A stretch of 35,851 nt of DNA from a virus, in the IMG/VR virus record IMGVR_UViG_3300030419_000739, positions 1-35,851 of that record. One strand, given 5' to 3'. Positions 1 through 35,851 of the stretch are shown piece after piece. A program made the translations under genes and the position numbers. How positions within the stretch are numbered: the stretch's first letter is position 1; each line of letters starts with the position of its first letter. Below the pieces are notes generated by a model, which was not told the origin of the DNA, searched no databases, and saw only the letters and a list, made by a program, of their open reading frames with translations.

Positions 1-98
1 GTCGGCTCACCGAACATATCAATTTCGCCTACACCACAACTAAGACAACGCACTCTTTAGCTTGTCAATCATAGCACTAGCATTACCCTTAGTAGCTT
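1..98. repeat. Terminal direct repeat, left copy
   Basis: The first 98 bases are identical to 35752-35849. The match stops at base 99, where the right end has C instead of T. It contains the last codons of the Rad52-like gene. It is most simply an assembly overlap from a circular or circularly permuted genome; a genuine short terminal repeat cannot be excluded from sequence alone. Confidence 0.95.
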
Positions 99-1014
99 TT
101 CCACTAGCTAGATACTTCTTAGCTTCAGCACCAAGTTCATCTTGACCTGCATCAATAGCTTGTTCAATCAAACTATTAATAAAGTTTTTCTGTCCATCAC
201 TTATAGGATCTTCTTTCCACTTCCCATCAGGTATATCAGCCATATCTTCCTCACTTTCTTTTTCTTCTACATTACCCATTGTTTCTATAATAGTATTAAC
301 TACCTCACTATTTCCTGCTCTTTTCTCAAATTCATCTTTATATTTTGCTACATAATCCTCTACGAGTTTGAGAAATTTATCTACATTATCGTTAGACCAA
401 TCAGCTACATTGTCGCCAATAGATTTATCCATTTTGAATCTAGTCATACTTGTGTCGTAGCATTTCTTTGCAAAGTTCTTGTCCTCGTTGCACATACTAA
501 AAACCATTTCTTTTAGTTGTGGCTCTGTCAAGCTAGAAGGGGATTTCGTAATCTCTTGTGCTACTGGTTTTTTTTTAGTCATACCTGTTGGCTTAGGTTG
601 TTGTACTACCTGTTCAACTACACCTGCGTAATGTTCTTCTTCTGTTGTATCGCCTGTCCATAGTTCTAGTCCTATACCAAAACGCATACAACATCTCTTT
701 ATCCCATCACTAACTGCTAGTTTAAGTATCTCGCTTTCAGTTAAGTTTCTTGCTAGTGCGTGTCTATCTACATCACCAACTTCTTGTACTGTACCAAGAT
801 CATCTATTTCTAATGTACATTTTGCACCTACAACTGCGTTGTCTTTATCCCTTATGATGTCATAAGTAAAGTTGTACTTGCCACCTACAACATCAACCAA
901 TCTCTTTGTGTATATGTGGTGTGGTACATAGTCGCCATACTTCCCTTGTGGTGCTTTCTTTACTACACTCTTTGGAAAGTTAGCTGTTAATTTTTTATGT
1001 GTTTCTTTATCCAT
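40..1014 (-). CDS. Rad52/Rad22-family single-strand annealing protein
   Basis: Probable phage recombinase of the Rad52/Rad22 family, which binds single-stranded DNA and anneals complementary strands. In this 324-residue protein the conserved core is residues 1-120: a GKYGDYVPHHIYTKRL segment, a beta-rich stretch, then DVDRHALARNLTESEILKLAVSDG and a KRCCMRFGIGLELW-like segment typical of the family's N-terminal domain. Residues 140-260 are charged and variable. The last 50 residues (SDGQKNFINSL...ASAMIDKL) form a C-terminal module seen at the end of various phage recombination proteins. The ATG has a strong AGGAG upstream. The gene ends the leftward run of small genes and is followed, across the circle junction, by a zinc-ribbon gene and the methyltransferase cassette. 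It is the only recognisable DNA-metabolism protein here apart from the methyltransferase and nuclease-like genes. Confidence 0.85.
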   Translation of the reverse strand: MDKETHKKLTANFPKSVVKKAPQGKYGDYVPHHIYTKRLVDVVGGKYNFTYDIIRDKDNAVVGAKCTLEIDDLGTVQEVGDVDRHALARNLTESEILKLAVSDGIKRCCMRFGIGLELWTGDTTEEEHYAGVVEQVVQQPKPTGMTKKKPVAQEITKSPSSLTEPQLKEMVFSMCNEDKNFAKKCYDTSMTRFKMDKSIGDNVADWSNDNVDKFLKLVEDYVAKYKDEFEKRAGNSEVVNTIIETMGNVEEKESEEDMADIPDGKWKEDPISDGQKNFINSLIEQAIDAGQDELGAEAKKYLASGKATKGNASAMIDKLKSALS

Positions 1015-32244: not shown

Positions 32245-33402
32245 ATGACACAGGAACTAGGTAATAATTATTACAAGTCTGGTTGGCAACCATCAATAGA
32301 GTTTGATGAAACAACAGGCAAAGGTGAAGTAACCTATGTAGGTACTGACCCTGATTACAAGAATAAGTATGATGAGATACTTAAAAACTGGGGGTTTGAT
32401 CCCAAATACTTTACGATTGAGGGGAATGTAAGGGCTAGTAGCTGGGAAGGACAGCTAAAAGGTGGCAGAACGACCACCTTTTTTGCATTTAAGGGGGTTG
32501 TAAAGCGTAAAAACCCTGCATTAGACCAGTATTTTGACAAACTTGTTAAGGAATACAGTAGAAAACCTAAGTTAAAAGACACAAATTTTGGTGGTGATAC
32601 TGCTTTTATATGGACAATGGCTGACTGGCAGTTAGGTAAAGCTGATTATGGCGTTGAGAATACCCTTAAACGCTACGAGGAAGCTCTTATTAAGGGGGTA
32701 AATCAGGTTAAGGCACTACGCAAGACAGGTACAGAGATAGATGAGATATATTTATTAGGATTAGGTGATCTAACAGAGAACTGTGACCAATCGTTTTACA
32801 GTTCAATGCCTTTTAATATAGAGTTATCGCTATCACAACAGTATCAATTAGCTAGGCGTATGATAATGAAAACTATTGATACATTCCTTTCACAAGCAGA
32901 CAAGATTGTGATTTGTGGTATTGGTGGTAATCACGGAGAGATGACACGATCAGGCAAAGGACAGGTATTGTCAGATAGATTAGACAACTCTGATATGATG
33001 CACTTTGAAGTAGTCAAAGAGATACTTGCACAGAACAAAAGATATGACAAAGTAAAGGTCATACTACCTACTGACTATCATCACTTGCTAGATATAAAAG
33101 GTAAGGGTGTAGCTATCACACACGGACATATGACAGGTGGTGGTTCTGGTCCAGAGGGTAAGATTATGAAGTGGTGGGCAGGTCAAGCTATGGGTTGGCT
33201 ACCTAGTGGTGCAGCCGAGATACTTATAACAGGACACTACCATCACCCAAGAGTATATAAACAAGGTAAACGTACTTGGTTTCAATGTCCAAGCATAGAT
33301 GCAAGTAAAGACTTTACTGCAAGAACAGGACTATGGAATGATCCTGGTGTGTTATGTTTTACAGTTAATAAAGATGGCTGGGATAACTACAGGATAGTTT
33401 AA
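32245..33402 (+). CDS. Calcineurin-like metallophosphoesterase, 385 aa
   Basis: A 385-residue protein with the motifs of the metallophosphoesterase superfamily: WTMADWQLGKADYG (residues about 127-140; DxQ in place of DxH), LLGLGDLTENCD, GIGGNHGEMT, ITHGHMT and GHYHHPRVY. These residues bind two metals. The family cleaves phosphodiester or phosphomonoester bonds, including nucleic acids; proteins of this shape are frequent in actinobacteriophages and their substrate is not known. The first 100 residues are a separate domain with ...YFTIEGNVRASSWEGQL. The start is fixed by AAAGGG in a hairpin loop. Its stop overlaps that of the minus-strand gene at 33399. Confidence 0.85.
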   Translation: MTQELGNNYYKSGWQPSIEFDETTGKGEVTYVGTDPDYKNKYDEILKNWGFDPKYFTIEGNVRASSWEGQLKGGRTTTFFAFKGVVKRKNPALDQYFDKLVKEYSRKPKLKDTNFGGDTAFIWTMADWQLGKADYGVENTLKRYEEALIKGVNQVKALRKTGTEIDEIYLLGLGDLTENCDQSFYSSMPFNIELSLSQQYQLARRMIMKTIDTFLSQADKIVICGIGGNHGEMTRSGKGQVLSDRLDNSDMMHFEVVKEILAQNKRYDKVKVILPTDYHHLLDIKGKGVAITHGHMTGGGSGPEGKIMKWWAGQAMGWLPSGAAEILITGHYHHPRVYKQGKRTWFQCPSIDASKDFTARTGLWNDPGVLCFTVNKDGWDNYRIV

Positions 33403-33497
33403 ACACAATCCTCTATCATATAAGCAATACAACCAACACATCTACCATCAAAATTTAATGTTGTTTGTGGTGGTTCGCCACACTCTATACAATTCAT
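33399..33497 (-). CDS. Zinc-knuckle microprotein, 32 aa
   Basis: A 32-residue frame with CIEC (Cys3-Cys6) and CVGC (Cys20-Cys23), a compact zinc ribbon. Its ATG overlaps the upstream stop (ATGA) and its TAA overlaps the TAA of the phosphoesterase on the other strand in the palindrome GTTTAAAC. It is the last gene of the leftward operon. Function unknown. Confidence 0.6.
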   Translation of the reverse strand: MNCIECGEPPQTTLNFDGRCVGCIAYMIEDCV

Positions 33498-33682
33498 TCT
33501 TCTTCTTGTTCTACTGTTGTAAGTACCTGCACATTAGGTAGTATTGCTAGTAGTTGTATTTGTCCATTAGATAATATTATGCTCTTGCCCATAAATAATG
33601 GTTGATCTTTATCATCTTTTCTTCCTAACAACTCTGCTATTAACATACCTGTTGTTGCTTTGCTTAACATTACATCAATCAT
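33494..33682 (-). CDS. Hypothetical protein, 62 aa
   Basis: The 62-residue protein starts MIDVMLSKATTGMLIAELLG and has a beta-rich middle (KSIILSNGQIQLLAILPN) and an acidic end (TTVEQEEE). AAGGAG precedes the ATG, which overlaps the stop of the upstream microgene (ATGA). Its stop overlaps the next ATG the same way. I do not recognise the family. Confidence 0.7.
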   Translation of the reverse strand: MIDVMLSKATTGMLIAELLGRKDDKDQPLFMGKSIILSNGQIQLLAILPNVQVLTTVEQEEE

Positions 33683-33798
33683 TTTTTCTCCTTTTTAATT
33701 TCTAATCTTCTTAATTCTATTAATACTCTTGCTTTATCAAGTTGTGTTTCATAATCTAAATGATTAATTACTTGTTCTAAATTGTCCATTGTGTTCAT
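33679..33798 (-). CDS. Helical microprotein, 39 aa
   Basis: A 39-residue charged helix (MNTMDNLEQVINHLDYETQL ... RRLEIKKEKK) that may form a coiled coil. GGGG lies 5 bases before the ATG, one base after the methyltransferase stop. Its final codons supply AAGGAG for the next gene, and its TGA overlaps the next ATG. Probably real because of coupling at both ends. An alternative ATG lies three codons in. Confidence 0.6.
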   Translation of the reverse strand: MNTMDNLEQVINHLDYETQLDKARVLIELRRLEIKKEKK

Positions 33799-33799
33799 A

Positions 33800-34441
33800 T
33801 CAACCCCATTGATTTGCCATAGCCTTTGCTATTCCTGGAAATGTAGCACTTCTAATTTTGCCTCTTTCCTCTTTTGGTAATGTATATGTATCATAATGAA
33901 ATTTAGACATTCTTTTACCCTTAGAAACATTTATCCATATAGGTTCAACTACATCTGTTGGTTGTAATGGTTCTAAATTTTTTAACCACAAACAAGTAGA
34001 TTTAGAAGTAGGGTGTCCATATTCATAAGGTTGTATTATTTGCGTAGGTTTTTTAATTTTTGAACTAATAACACTTATGGGATTTTCAACAACAATTTTT
34101 TCAATAGGTGCATCTAATAATAACTGTACAAAGTCCAATGCTTCTTGTTGATACTGCCTTCTATTAGGGTGCATTGGATGTGGTCTGCGTTCATCATAAG
34201 GTAAATGTTTATCTTCTGGATGATAGTACCATCTAGCACCACTTACTGATAGATAAGTACAAGGTGGATGTGCAATCATTAAATCCCAACCATCATATAA
34301 AATGTCTGTAACATCTCCTTGATAGTGTTCTCCTAAATCACTTTCACTTGGCAGCAAATCACAACTAACAGCCTCGTGTCCTTTGTTAATAAAAGCATCT
34401 CTTACTATTCCAGAATATTCACAAGCAACTAATACTTTCAT
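33800..34441 (-). CDS. DNA cytosine methyltransferase-like protein, 213 aa
   Basis: The protein has reduced C5-cytosine methyltransferase features: a cofactor-binding start LVACEYSGIVRDAF (motif I-like), IAHPPCTYLS with the putative catalytic Cys61 (motif IV, PPC rather than PCQ), and IVVENP (Glu119-Pro121; motif VI). After this comes YGHPTSKSTCLWLKN, also seen in the second methyltransferase-like gene in altered form (YGDTRMKPTDIWTN). At 213 residues it lacks the usual target-recognition domain, so it may be specificity-limited or inactive. Such short proteins are common in phages. It starts with an ATGA overlap with the nuclease-like gene. Confidence 0.75.
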   Translation of the reverse strand: MKVLVACEYSGIVRDAFINKGHEAVSCDLLPSESDLGEHYQGDVTDILYDGWDLMIAHPPCTYLSVSGARWYYHPEDKHLPYDERRPHPMHPNRRQYQQEALDFVQLLLDAPIEKIVVENPISVISSKIKKPTQIIQPYEYGHPTSKSTCLWLKNLEPLQPTDVVEPIWINVSKGKRMSKFHYDTYTLPKEERGKIRSATFPGIAKAMANQWG

Positions 34442-34833
34442 TCGTGAACCTTTGCTACACCTTCGTATAAAAATCCTACCACTTTTGTAACAGTTTTAGT
34501 ATCTTCAAACTCTGTTGTTCTAGGCATTGGTATTGGCGACCATTGGAAGTCATAACCTTTACGCACTAAGTTATGTATGTTCCAAGTCATAATCTTTCCA
34601 TCATATTCTGTAAGATATACAAACATCTTGCCTGTTTCTACTGATATGACAATGTTGCTATCAAATTTTTTCTTTTCAATAGCCCAACTCCTGTATTGTT
34701 TATCTCTTGACTTAACTTCTACAATGTATCTTTCGTTCTCTGCATCATAGGTGCTGTAAGGATTGCTTACTTCTACTAAATCAAGACCAGGATATATACT
34801 GTTTAACTTATTTATTATCTCTGTCTGTGTCAT
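34438..34833 (-). CDS. Possible PD-(D/E)XK nuclease-like protein, 131 aa
   Basis: A 131-residue alpha/beta protein. The segment YDAENERYIVEVKSRDKQYR (residues about 29-48) has the Asp ... Glu-x-Lys arrangement of PD-(D/E)XK nucleases, followed by a helix with WAIEKKKFD and a strand (SNIVISVETGKMFVYL). Helix, Asp, E-x-K strand and helix in that order fit the fold, though the short length leaves doubt. It sits exactly between two cytosine methyltransferase-like genes, with ATGA overlaps on both sides, as would be expected of a restriction or self-protection module. Confidence 0.5.
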   Translation of the reverse strand: MTQTEIINKLNSIYPGLDLVEVSNPYSTYDAENERYIVEVKSRDKQYRSWAIEKKKFDSNIVISVETGKMFVYLTEYDGKIMTWNIHNLVRKGYDFQWSPIPMPRTTEFEDTKTVTKVVGFLYEGVAKVHE

Positions 34834-35468
34834 ACCATTACCTCTAATAATTCTTTACATAATTCATAAGGTACTTTACTTCTTTCATAAGCACCTTTTA
34901 ATCCTTGTGTTCCTGTCTTTGATCCTCTAGGTGCAGATTCGTGGCAAGGCATACCATTCTTACACATTGGTCTAGGTGTCCAAGGTGCATTAGTCCATAT
35001 ATCAGTAGGTTTCATTCTTGTATCTCCATACTGACAATAGGTTACTGTGTGTCTAGTTAAGTATTCTACTGCACTCATCTTACGCATAAGTCCTCTAGGA
35101 TTTTCTATAACATAATACTTTGGTTGCAATTTATTCATTATCCATACTGTTTGTTCTAATAAATACAAACCTAATTCTGCATCATTTGTTTTAGGTATTC
35201 TTAAACCTTCTTCATCTGGTGCTGTCCAATGCGTACTGCAACTAGCAATACTAAATGTTGTACAGGGTGGACTAGCCCATATAATATCTGGACTAAATGA
35301 TATGTCATCTATAGTAAAATCAATTACATCTTTAACTAAATCTATTTTTTTATATTGATTTTTTGTCAACAAATCTAGTCCATTATCAACTGTAAATGTT
35401 TTATGTCCATATTCTTTAGCTACATCACTAAAACTACAACTACCTGCAAACAATTCCAGTACTTTCAT
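34830..35468 (-). CDS. DNA cytosine methyltransferase-like protein, 212 aa
   Basis: This protein begins KVLELFAGSCSFS (motif I, FxGxG-like), has IIWASPPCTTFS with putative catalytic Cys69 (motif IV), YVIENPRGLM (Glu122-Pro124, motif VI), and YGDTRMKPTDIWTN in the place of the later motifs. Like its neighbour it lacks a large target-recognition domain. The frame opens at 35498, but ATG 35468 overlaps the upstream stop (ATGA) and gives the normal start of the domain, so it is chosen. It could modify phage DNA against host restriction. The rest of the cassette is coupled downstream. Confidence 0.78.
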   Translation of the reverse strand: MKVLELFAGSCSFSDVAKEYGHKTFTVDNGLDLLTKNQYKKIDLVKDVIDFTIDDISFSPDIIWASPPCTTFSIASCSTHWTAPDEEGLRIPKTNDAELGLYLLEQTVWIMNKLQPKYYVIENPRGLMRKMSAVEYLTRHTVTYCQYGDTRMKPTDIWTNAPWTPRPMCKNGMPCHESAPRGSKTGTQGLKGAYERSKVPYELCKELLEVMV

Positions 35469-35707
35469 TCTTCTTCCCCAAACATTTCTATCCAACATCT
35501 TGGGTGTGTGCCTGTAATCATTTGTTCTCTAAAATCTCTGTCTAATGATTTAACTGCATCTTGTATGTGATAACCCTGATTAAGATAAAACAATTCCTGT
35601 GTAAATATCTCTACAGTTCCTGTCTGCTTACAATGAAAACATTTTTTTGTTTCAATAACATACTTGTCGCCATTTTCAAAGTCGTATATCTTGTCTATTA
35701 CTTTCAT
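35465..35707 (-). CDS. Zinc-ribbon protein with THPxCWxxMF motif, 80 aa
   Basis: The 80-residue protein has CFHC (Cys23-Cys26) and a later GTHPRCWIEMFGEEE, with a helical middle. I know this arrangement (an N-terminal CxxC and a C-terminal TGxHxxCWxxMF with an acidic tail) from small actinobacteriophage proteins; function is not established. The His and last Cys could complete a zinc site. AGGGAAA lies upstream of ATG 35707; the stop overlaps the methyltransferase start. Confidence 0.75.
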   Translation of the reverse strand: MKVIDKIYDFENGDKYVIETKKCFHCKQTGTVEIFTQELFYLNQGYHIQDAVKSLDRDFREQMITGTHPRCWIEMFGEEE

Positions 35708-35804
35708 TTATTATTTCCCTGCACTTTCTACAATATGTTTCTACAATATATGTCGGCTCACCGAACATATCAATTTCGCCTACACCACAACTAAGACAAC
35801 GCAC
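35676..35804 (-). CDS. Zinc-ribbon microprotein with GTG start, 42 aa
   Basis: A 42-residue frame with CLSC (Cys3-Cys6) and CRKC (Cys25-Cys28) around GVGEIDMFGEPTYIVETY, a good zinc-ribbon layout. The only start that keeps both pairs is GTG 35804, inside the last codons of the Rad52-like gene; an in-frame stop lies two codons earlier. It overlaps the start of the next gene by 32 bases. It links the Rad52-like gene to the methyltransferase cassette across the circle junction. Confidence 0.5.
   Translation of the reverse strand: MRCLSCGVGEIDMFGEPTYIVETYCRKCREIINESNRQDIRL
35725..35750. repeat. Short 13-bp tandem duplication
   Basis: TTTCTACAATAT occurs twice at a 13-base period just beside the terminal repeat. 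It lies within the 42-residue zinc-ribbon gene but its period is not a multiple of three. Confidence 0.6.
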
Positions 35805-35849
35805 TCTTTAGCTTGTCAATCATAGCACTAGCATTACCCTTAGTAGCTT
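35752..35849. repeat. Terminal direct repeat, right copy
   Basis: Identical to bases 1-98; the final CG (35850-35851) does not match. It contains a second copy of the end of the Rad52-like gene (35791-35849). Joining the copies closes a circle of 35,751 bp. Confidence 0.95.
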
Positions 35850-35851
35850 CG

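Follow-up and report, generated by a model that had tools for sequence, protein, structure and literature searches.

Archaeal junction resolvases, C5-cytosine methyltransferases and the replication modules of certain roseophages are the described systems closest to a locus that we analysed in the DNA of a marine phage (IMG/VR record IMGVR_UViG_3300030419_000739, positions 1 to 35,851; the whole stretch of 35,851 nucleotides is hereafter the window). The locus encodes a 131-residue nuclease-like protein, X131, between two small methyltransferase-type proteins, MTa and MTb. With the archaeal resolvase Hjc and its paralogue Hje (for example Archaeoglobus fulgidus Hjc, 2wiw/2wcz), X131 shares its size (about 120-135 aa), a predicted fold that matches over the full length and a D...ExK active site preceded by an N-terminal helix, whereas the spacing from D to ExK is shorter in X131. 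Unlike these archaeal enzymes, X131 was found in phage contigs; the single pattern used for bacterial and archaeal genome contigs returned no relatives at its sensitivity, which does not prove absence. MTa has in common with M.HhaI and the C5 enzymes of PF00145 and phrog_757 a Rossmann core, the PPC and ENP motifs, a reduced motif VIII and a motif-X-like C-terminus, but M.HhaI carries a target-recognition domain (TRD) and MTa is about 100 residues shorter.

At the level of gene order, the nearest parallel is the replication module of CRP-810-type roseophages. According to the available passages of PMC11288001, their genes for a PD-(D/E)XK nuclease, a Holliday-junction resolvase and an annealing protein are constant and their DNA methyltransferases sporadic, as in the phages that carry X131, but their genomes are larger (52-68 kb), their other replication genes differ, and those passages contain no three-slot methyltransferase island of the kind reported below. 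No description of a comparable island was found elsewhere in the titles, abstracts and available passages of the literature. Restriction evasion by phage-borne methyltransferases is itself an established idea (PMC10477858). We consider it probable that X131 is a core junction-resolving nuclease and that the genes around it form an exchangeable, probably anti-restriction, DNA-modification island.

X131 as a predicted junction resolvase

In 39 sequences of the X131 family, down to 26% identity, the residues D30, E39, K41, R43, Y47, I52 and K56 never vary, and E53 hardly does. Judged from the alignment, these residues represent the PD-(D/E)XK pattern with its putative catalytic set, D...(D/E)xK. 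An earlier note on this DNA, made from the letters alone, had suspected a PD-(D/E)XK nuclease between the two methyltransferases and proposed structure prediction of the 131-residue protein as a check. The AlphaFold2 (AF2) model, with a predicted local distance difference test score (pLDDT) of 90.5 and a predicted template modelling score (pTM) of 0.83, agrees with D30/E39-x-K41 in supporting that suspicion: it has the PD-(D/E)XK core fold, and its matches in the Protein Data Bank (PDB) are PD-(D/E)XK enzymes. The ten best Foldseek matches of the model are all Hjc or Hje, led by an archaeal Hjc (E 9e-4, probability 1.0). Structural comparison against the PDB gave Hjc or Hje for the nine entries with the best Z, the highest being 12.5 (root-mean-square deviation 2.4 over 103 aligned residues), and the Hjc fold is followed along the whole chain. 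X131 had no match in Pfam, PHROGs or the other family libraries scanned, and phmmer and hmmsearch comparisons of X131, MTa and MTb with PDB sequences returned nothing useful; one scan of viral contigs found at least 483 relatives of X131.

With the exonuclease-like gene Exo as an anchor independent of X131, 44 loci offered 3 kb of room or more, and 43 of them have X131 between this gene and the gene for a Rad52-like annealing protein. X131 is absent from the 44th locus (L211), and likewise from two further lineages, L368-L370 and L108-L110. There, a protein of 158-170 aa with a PDYxF...ExK motif lies beside Exo; it occurs only where X131 is absent, and the two were never found together:

L211, 2728-3240, minus strand: replacing PD...ExK protein
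L368, 4016-4498, and L369, 3213-3695, plus strand: replacing PD...ExK protein
L108, 5011-5487; L109, 2843-3319; L110, 4647-5123, plus strand: replacing PD...ExK protein

The replacing proteins of L211 and L108 are about 30% identical (E 4e-4), and the sole profile support for the group is a weak TnsA-like match (E 0.03). This second PD...ExK family is an apparent non-orthologous replacement of X131. That one PD-(D/E)XK-like protein is replaced by another argues for a generic duty as a recombination nuclease rather than a partnership with MTa or MTb. L108-L110 carry MTb together with the replacing protein. Most likely, then, X131 would be a homodimeric, Hjc-like enzyme of phage recombination, cutting the four-way and other branched DNA that arises from annealing-driven recombination and replication, and so rendering the genome packageable.

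Constant backbone and exchangeable slots

All eight consecutive minus-strand frames that had been noted from the sequence are present in the open reading frame (ORF) list of the window. Most are indeed joined by ATGA overlaps, namely at five of seven junctions (Zn80/MTa, MTa/X131, X131/MTb, u39/u62 and u62/Zn32); MTb is separated from u39 by 1 nt, and 32 nt are shared by Zn42 and Zn80. The features of the operon and its borders are:

35676-35804, minus strand: Zn42, 42 aa, two CxxC pairs, listed as an ORF; begins within the 3' end of the gene for the annealing protein and is syntenic in most loci
35465-35707, minus strand: Zn80, 80 aa, CxxC and THPRCW; matches phrog_20898 (3e-6), of unknown function; semi-constant, often absent
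34830-35468, minus strand: MTa, C5-cytosine methyltransferase by predicted fold, 212 aa, no TRD; start in the ORF list 35498
34438-34833, minus strand: X131, 131-aa PD-(D/E)XK nuclease-like protein with a predicted Hjc-type fold; constant backbone gene
33800-34441, minus strand: MTb, second small protein of the C5-methyltransferase type (213 aa), phrog_757
33679-33798, minus strand: u39, 39-aa microprotein of only some loci (tblastn matches in L033, L106 and L158)
33494-33682, minus strand: u62, 62-aa backbone microprotein bordering slot 2, syntenic in most loci at 33-100% identity
33399-33497, minus strand: Zn32, 32 aa, CxxC pairs; backbone gene bordering slot 3, syntenic in many loci
32245-33402, plus strand: Exo, convergent downstream border; phrog_284 'exonuclease' of the calcineurin-like phosphoesterase type (6e-55)
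40-1014, minus strand: Rad52-like single-strand annealing protein; borders the operon upstream, beyond the circular junction (PF04098 5e-5, phrog_3290 3e-8)

The ends of the window are a direct repeat (1-98 and 35752-35851, 98 bases matching exactly), and the record is a circular or terminally redundant assembly. Since the ends repeat, the operon extends upstream across the junction into the annealing-protein gene; downstream it ends at the exonuclease-like gene at 32245-33402. Ratios of nonsynonymous to synonymous substitution (dN/dS) against relatives are 0.07-0.14 for X131, 0.15-0.23 for MTa and 0.08-0.30 for MTb. Given these values, X131, MTa and MTb are real genes under purifying selection and not chance frames.

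We compared gene order in loci fetched with X131, MTa, MTb, Exo and distant X131 queries, and confirmed the identities of the inserted genes with Pfam and PHROGs. Among the 72 loci with both flanks, the conserved backbone reads annealing protein, Zn42, in part Zn80, X131, u62, Zn32 and Exo, and other genes are inserted into it at three places, or slots: ahead of X131, in the gap from X131 to u62, and in the gap from Zn32 to Exo. These loci show 34 different arrangements; 37 have at least one methyltransferase and 35 have none. The cargo of the slots comprises three small C5 types, long C5 enzymes (382-535 aa), Dam-like, MT-A70, N4/N6 and D12-like enzymes, as well as PAPS-reductase-like and SET-domain proteins. 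Exchange is visible between close relatives. L002, whose X131 and Exo are 95% and 90% identical to those of the window, has neither MTa nor MTb; L034 (X131 97% identical) keeps MTa and has a different C5 enzyme in the place of MTb, L035 keeps MTa with a D12-like enzyme in that place, and L032/L033, which are one contig, keep MTb with an N4/N6 enzyme in the place of MTa. Between the window and L106, MTb is 93% and X131 60% identical; MTb therefore moves alone. MTa and MTb stand together in 6 of 129 loci, and many phages have MTa relatives without MTb.

The surroundings of X131 are thus a swappable DNA-modification island in which methyltransferases are cargo, not parts of a machine of the restriction-modification kind. 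The earlier note had taken the cassette for one coupled system and asked whether nuclease and methyltransferases occur together elsewhere. As a fixed trio they do not, as the 6 of 129 loci and the presence of MTb without X131 in L108-L110 indicate, and the idea of one system fails on the 35 loci with X131 but no methyltransferase and on the exchange between sister phages. What survives is a looser link: methyltransferases of one kind or another cluster within about 1.5 kb of X131. Mechanistically, we picture slots that would take, lose or exchange small coupled genes, the larger of which are nearly all methyltransferases of varied chemistry.

Three side observations concern the slots and joints. 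In several of these phages, small SET-domain proteins of about 95-117 aa occupy the slot beside Exo (L194, 3509-3811; L107, 705-992; L027, 3395-3748; all plus strand; PF00856 6.6e-12 for L194). Proteins of 288-291 aa that resemble PAPS reductases (phrog_424) turn up repeatedly in the methyltransferase slot (L003, 3794-4669; L011, 2232-3098; L203, 1543-2412; all plus strand), and are perhaps another DNA-modification or counter-defence gene. Finally, Glu-rich tails (GAAGAAGAA followed by the stop) end many early minus-strand genes (3' ends at 35465-35467, 33494-33496, 2769, 2623, 2338 and 1343); the C-terminal end of Zn80 reads THPRCWIEMFGEEE. The purine-rich DNA of these tails probably provides the overlapping gene that follows with its ribosome-binding site, and such a shared joint would allow cassettes to be swapped with their coupling intact.

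Small C5-type methyltransferases predicted to lack a target-recognition domain

The likeliest start of MTa is 35468 (MKVLELFAG..., 212 aa) rather than 35498, because that ATG overlaps the Zn80 stop as ATGA and most relatives start there. It matches PF00145 with 34 bits (cut-off 22) and phrog_757 with 1e-31 (positions 13-213 of 247). MTb matches phrog_757 more strongly (1e-64, positions 15-219 of 247) and nothing in Pfam, the PF00145 cut-off not being reached. The PPC and ENP motifs that had been noticed in both proteins are there: HPPC and ENP are invariant among 30 relatives of MTb, and the motifs of MTa are conserved among 32. The AF2 model of MTa (pLDDT 83.9) can be superposed on M.HhaI from one end to the other, the TRD being skipped (Z 16.5, residues 2-222 against 3-319). 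In the position of the TRD the model has a low-confidence loop of about 20 residues (181-200), whose sequence, MCKNGMPCHxxAPRGSxTGTQG, ranks with the most strongly conserved stretches of the family in the 32 relatives. The reading of both proteins as small C5 methyltransferases without a TRD is thus backed by a modelled fold for MTa; MTb is a probable second case, judging by its length, its membership of phrog_757 and its HPPC and ENP motifs. In MTa, on the evidence of the model, the target-reading part would be missing or shrunk to the conserved loop.

The near-invariant segment itself, MCKNGMPCHESAPRGSKTGTQG, lies at 34902-34967 of the window (residues about 178-199 of the 222-aa frame) and is predicted to be a disordered loop at the TRD position; it may become ordered on DNA or bind metal. 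In L026 an MTa relative is split by a frame change (1503-1802 and 1804-2331), reflecting either a decaying copy or a sequencing error. A DNMT2-like role of MTa on RNA was considered and rejected, with DNMT2 at rank 31 in Foldseek.

In the window, then, the cargo would consist of two orphan C5-cytosine methyltransferases, each of which, we infer, methylates cytosines in the phage DNA without depending on the other or on X131. The benefit would most likely be escape from host restriction.

Alternative readings and what the island may mean

Several results weigh against this picture of a resolvase amid exchangeable methyltransferases. On the side of X131, nuclease domains of SPARDA systems reach a Z of 9.9 against the model, nearly equal to some Hjc entries. 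A PF01870 (Hjc) profile search of the window gave no match, and hhalign of X131 against three Hjc sequences returned a probability of 1%. The relation to Hjc is therefore one of predicted structure, to which sequence profiles give no link. Because both comparisons were negative, we describe X131 as predicted to function in the manner of Hjc resolvases, without assigning it to PF01870. On the side of the methyltransferases, their placement appears non-random. Of 28 long contigs, 13 have a recognised methyltransferase and 15 none detected, the MT-A70 searches of these contigs being silent even in controls and thus saying nothing on absence. In all 12 methyltransferase-bearing long contigs besides the window, the nearest one is at most 1.3 kb from X131, and none of them is farther away than 1.5 kb. 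The chance of this at random positions is about 2e-12, a value that is indicative only, given that the contigs are related and were chosen by X131. The clustering spans marine and freshwater-type groups whose X131 proteins are 26-34% identical, and in some freshwater-type loci (L091, L093, L094 and L097) an ATGA overlap couples the X131 relative to a relative of MTa. Such placement could reflect a functional link.

The alternative that fares best leaves the island as it is and makes X131 another PD-(D/E)XK enzyme, such as a nicking nuclease, an enzyme degrading host DNA or a recombination exonuclease. The superfamily is broad, RecU (Z about 8), DpnI and others match the model besides SPARDA, and the negative Hjc profile comparison would be expected under this alternative. 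It is set back by the run of Hjc and Hje entries at the top of both structural searches and by the position of the gene within a Rad52-like/exonuclease module, a setting in which resolvases are commonly found. We regard it as rather unlikely.

Appreciably less probable is the protect-and-degrade system proposed in the earlier note, in which X131 would cut unmodified host or competitor DNA and the marks of MTa and MTb would spare that of the phage. The nuclease fold of the model, the proximity of methyltransferases to X131 in two distant groups and the ATGA-coupled pairs all speak for it. The obligate linkage of nuclease and cognate methyltransferase that marks restriction-modification systems was not found, however: nearly half of the two-flank loci and 15 of the 28 long contigs have X131 with no methyltransferase detected, adenine- and cytosine-specific enzymes interchange beside the same X131, and MTb occurs without X131 in L108-L110. 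The clustering is accounted for if the early recombination region is a hotspot for accessory genes. A weaker form of the link, in which the modification made by its neighbour adjusts how X131, as a resolvase or nuclease, treats phage and host DNA, strikes us as slightly less probable still; if true, X131 and an interchangeable 'password' methyltransferase would form a loosely coupled device for telling self from non-self, retained in two distant phage groups. That MTa and MTb are halves of one heterodimeric methyltransferase is very improbable, since, although both lack a TRD and share an operon and a PHROG, each has the full set of S-adenosylmethionine-binding and catalytic motifs, MTa relatives lack MTb in many phages, and the co-occurrence expected of the partners of a split C5 enzyme is missing, a count of 6 in 129 loci that speaks against an obligate heterodimer.

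With X131 read as a predicted junction resolvase within a modular modification island, which is what we believe to be new here, a widespread phage family outside Pfam and PHROGs (at least 483 relatives) gains a predicted function. The island also provides a natural experiment, with near-identical phages that differ only in the methyltransferases held in fixed, translation-coupled slots. This makes it testable how phages change the modification state of their DNA, and how cytosine methyltransferases that lack a TRD choose their sites.

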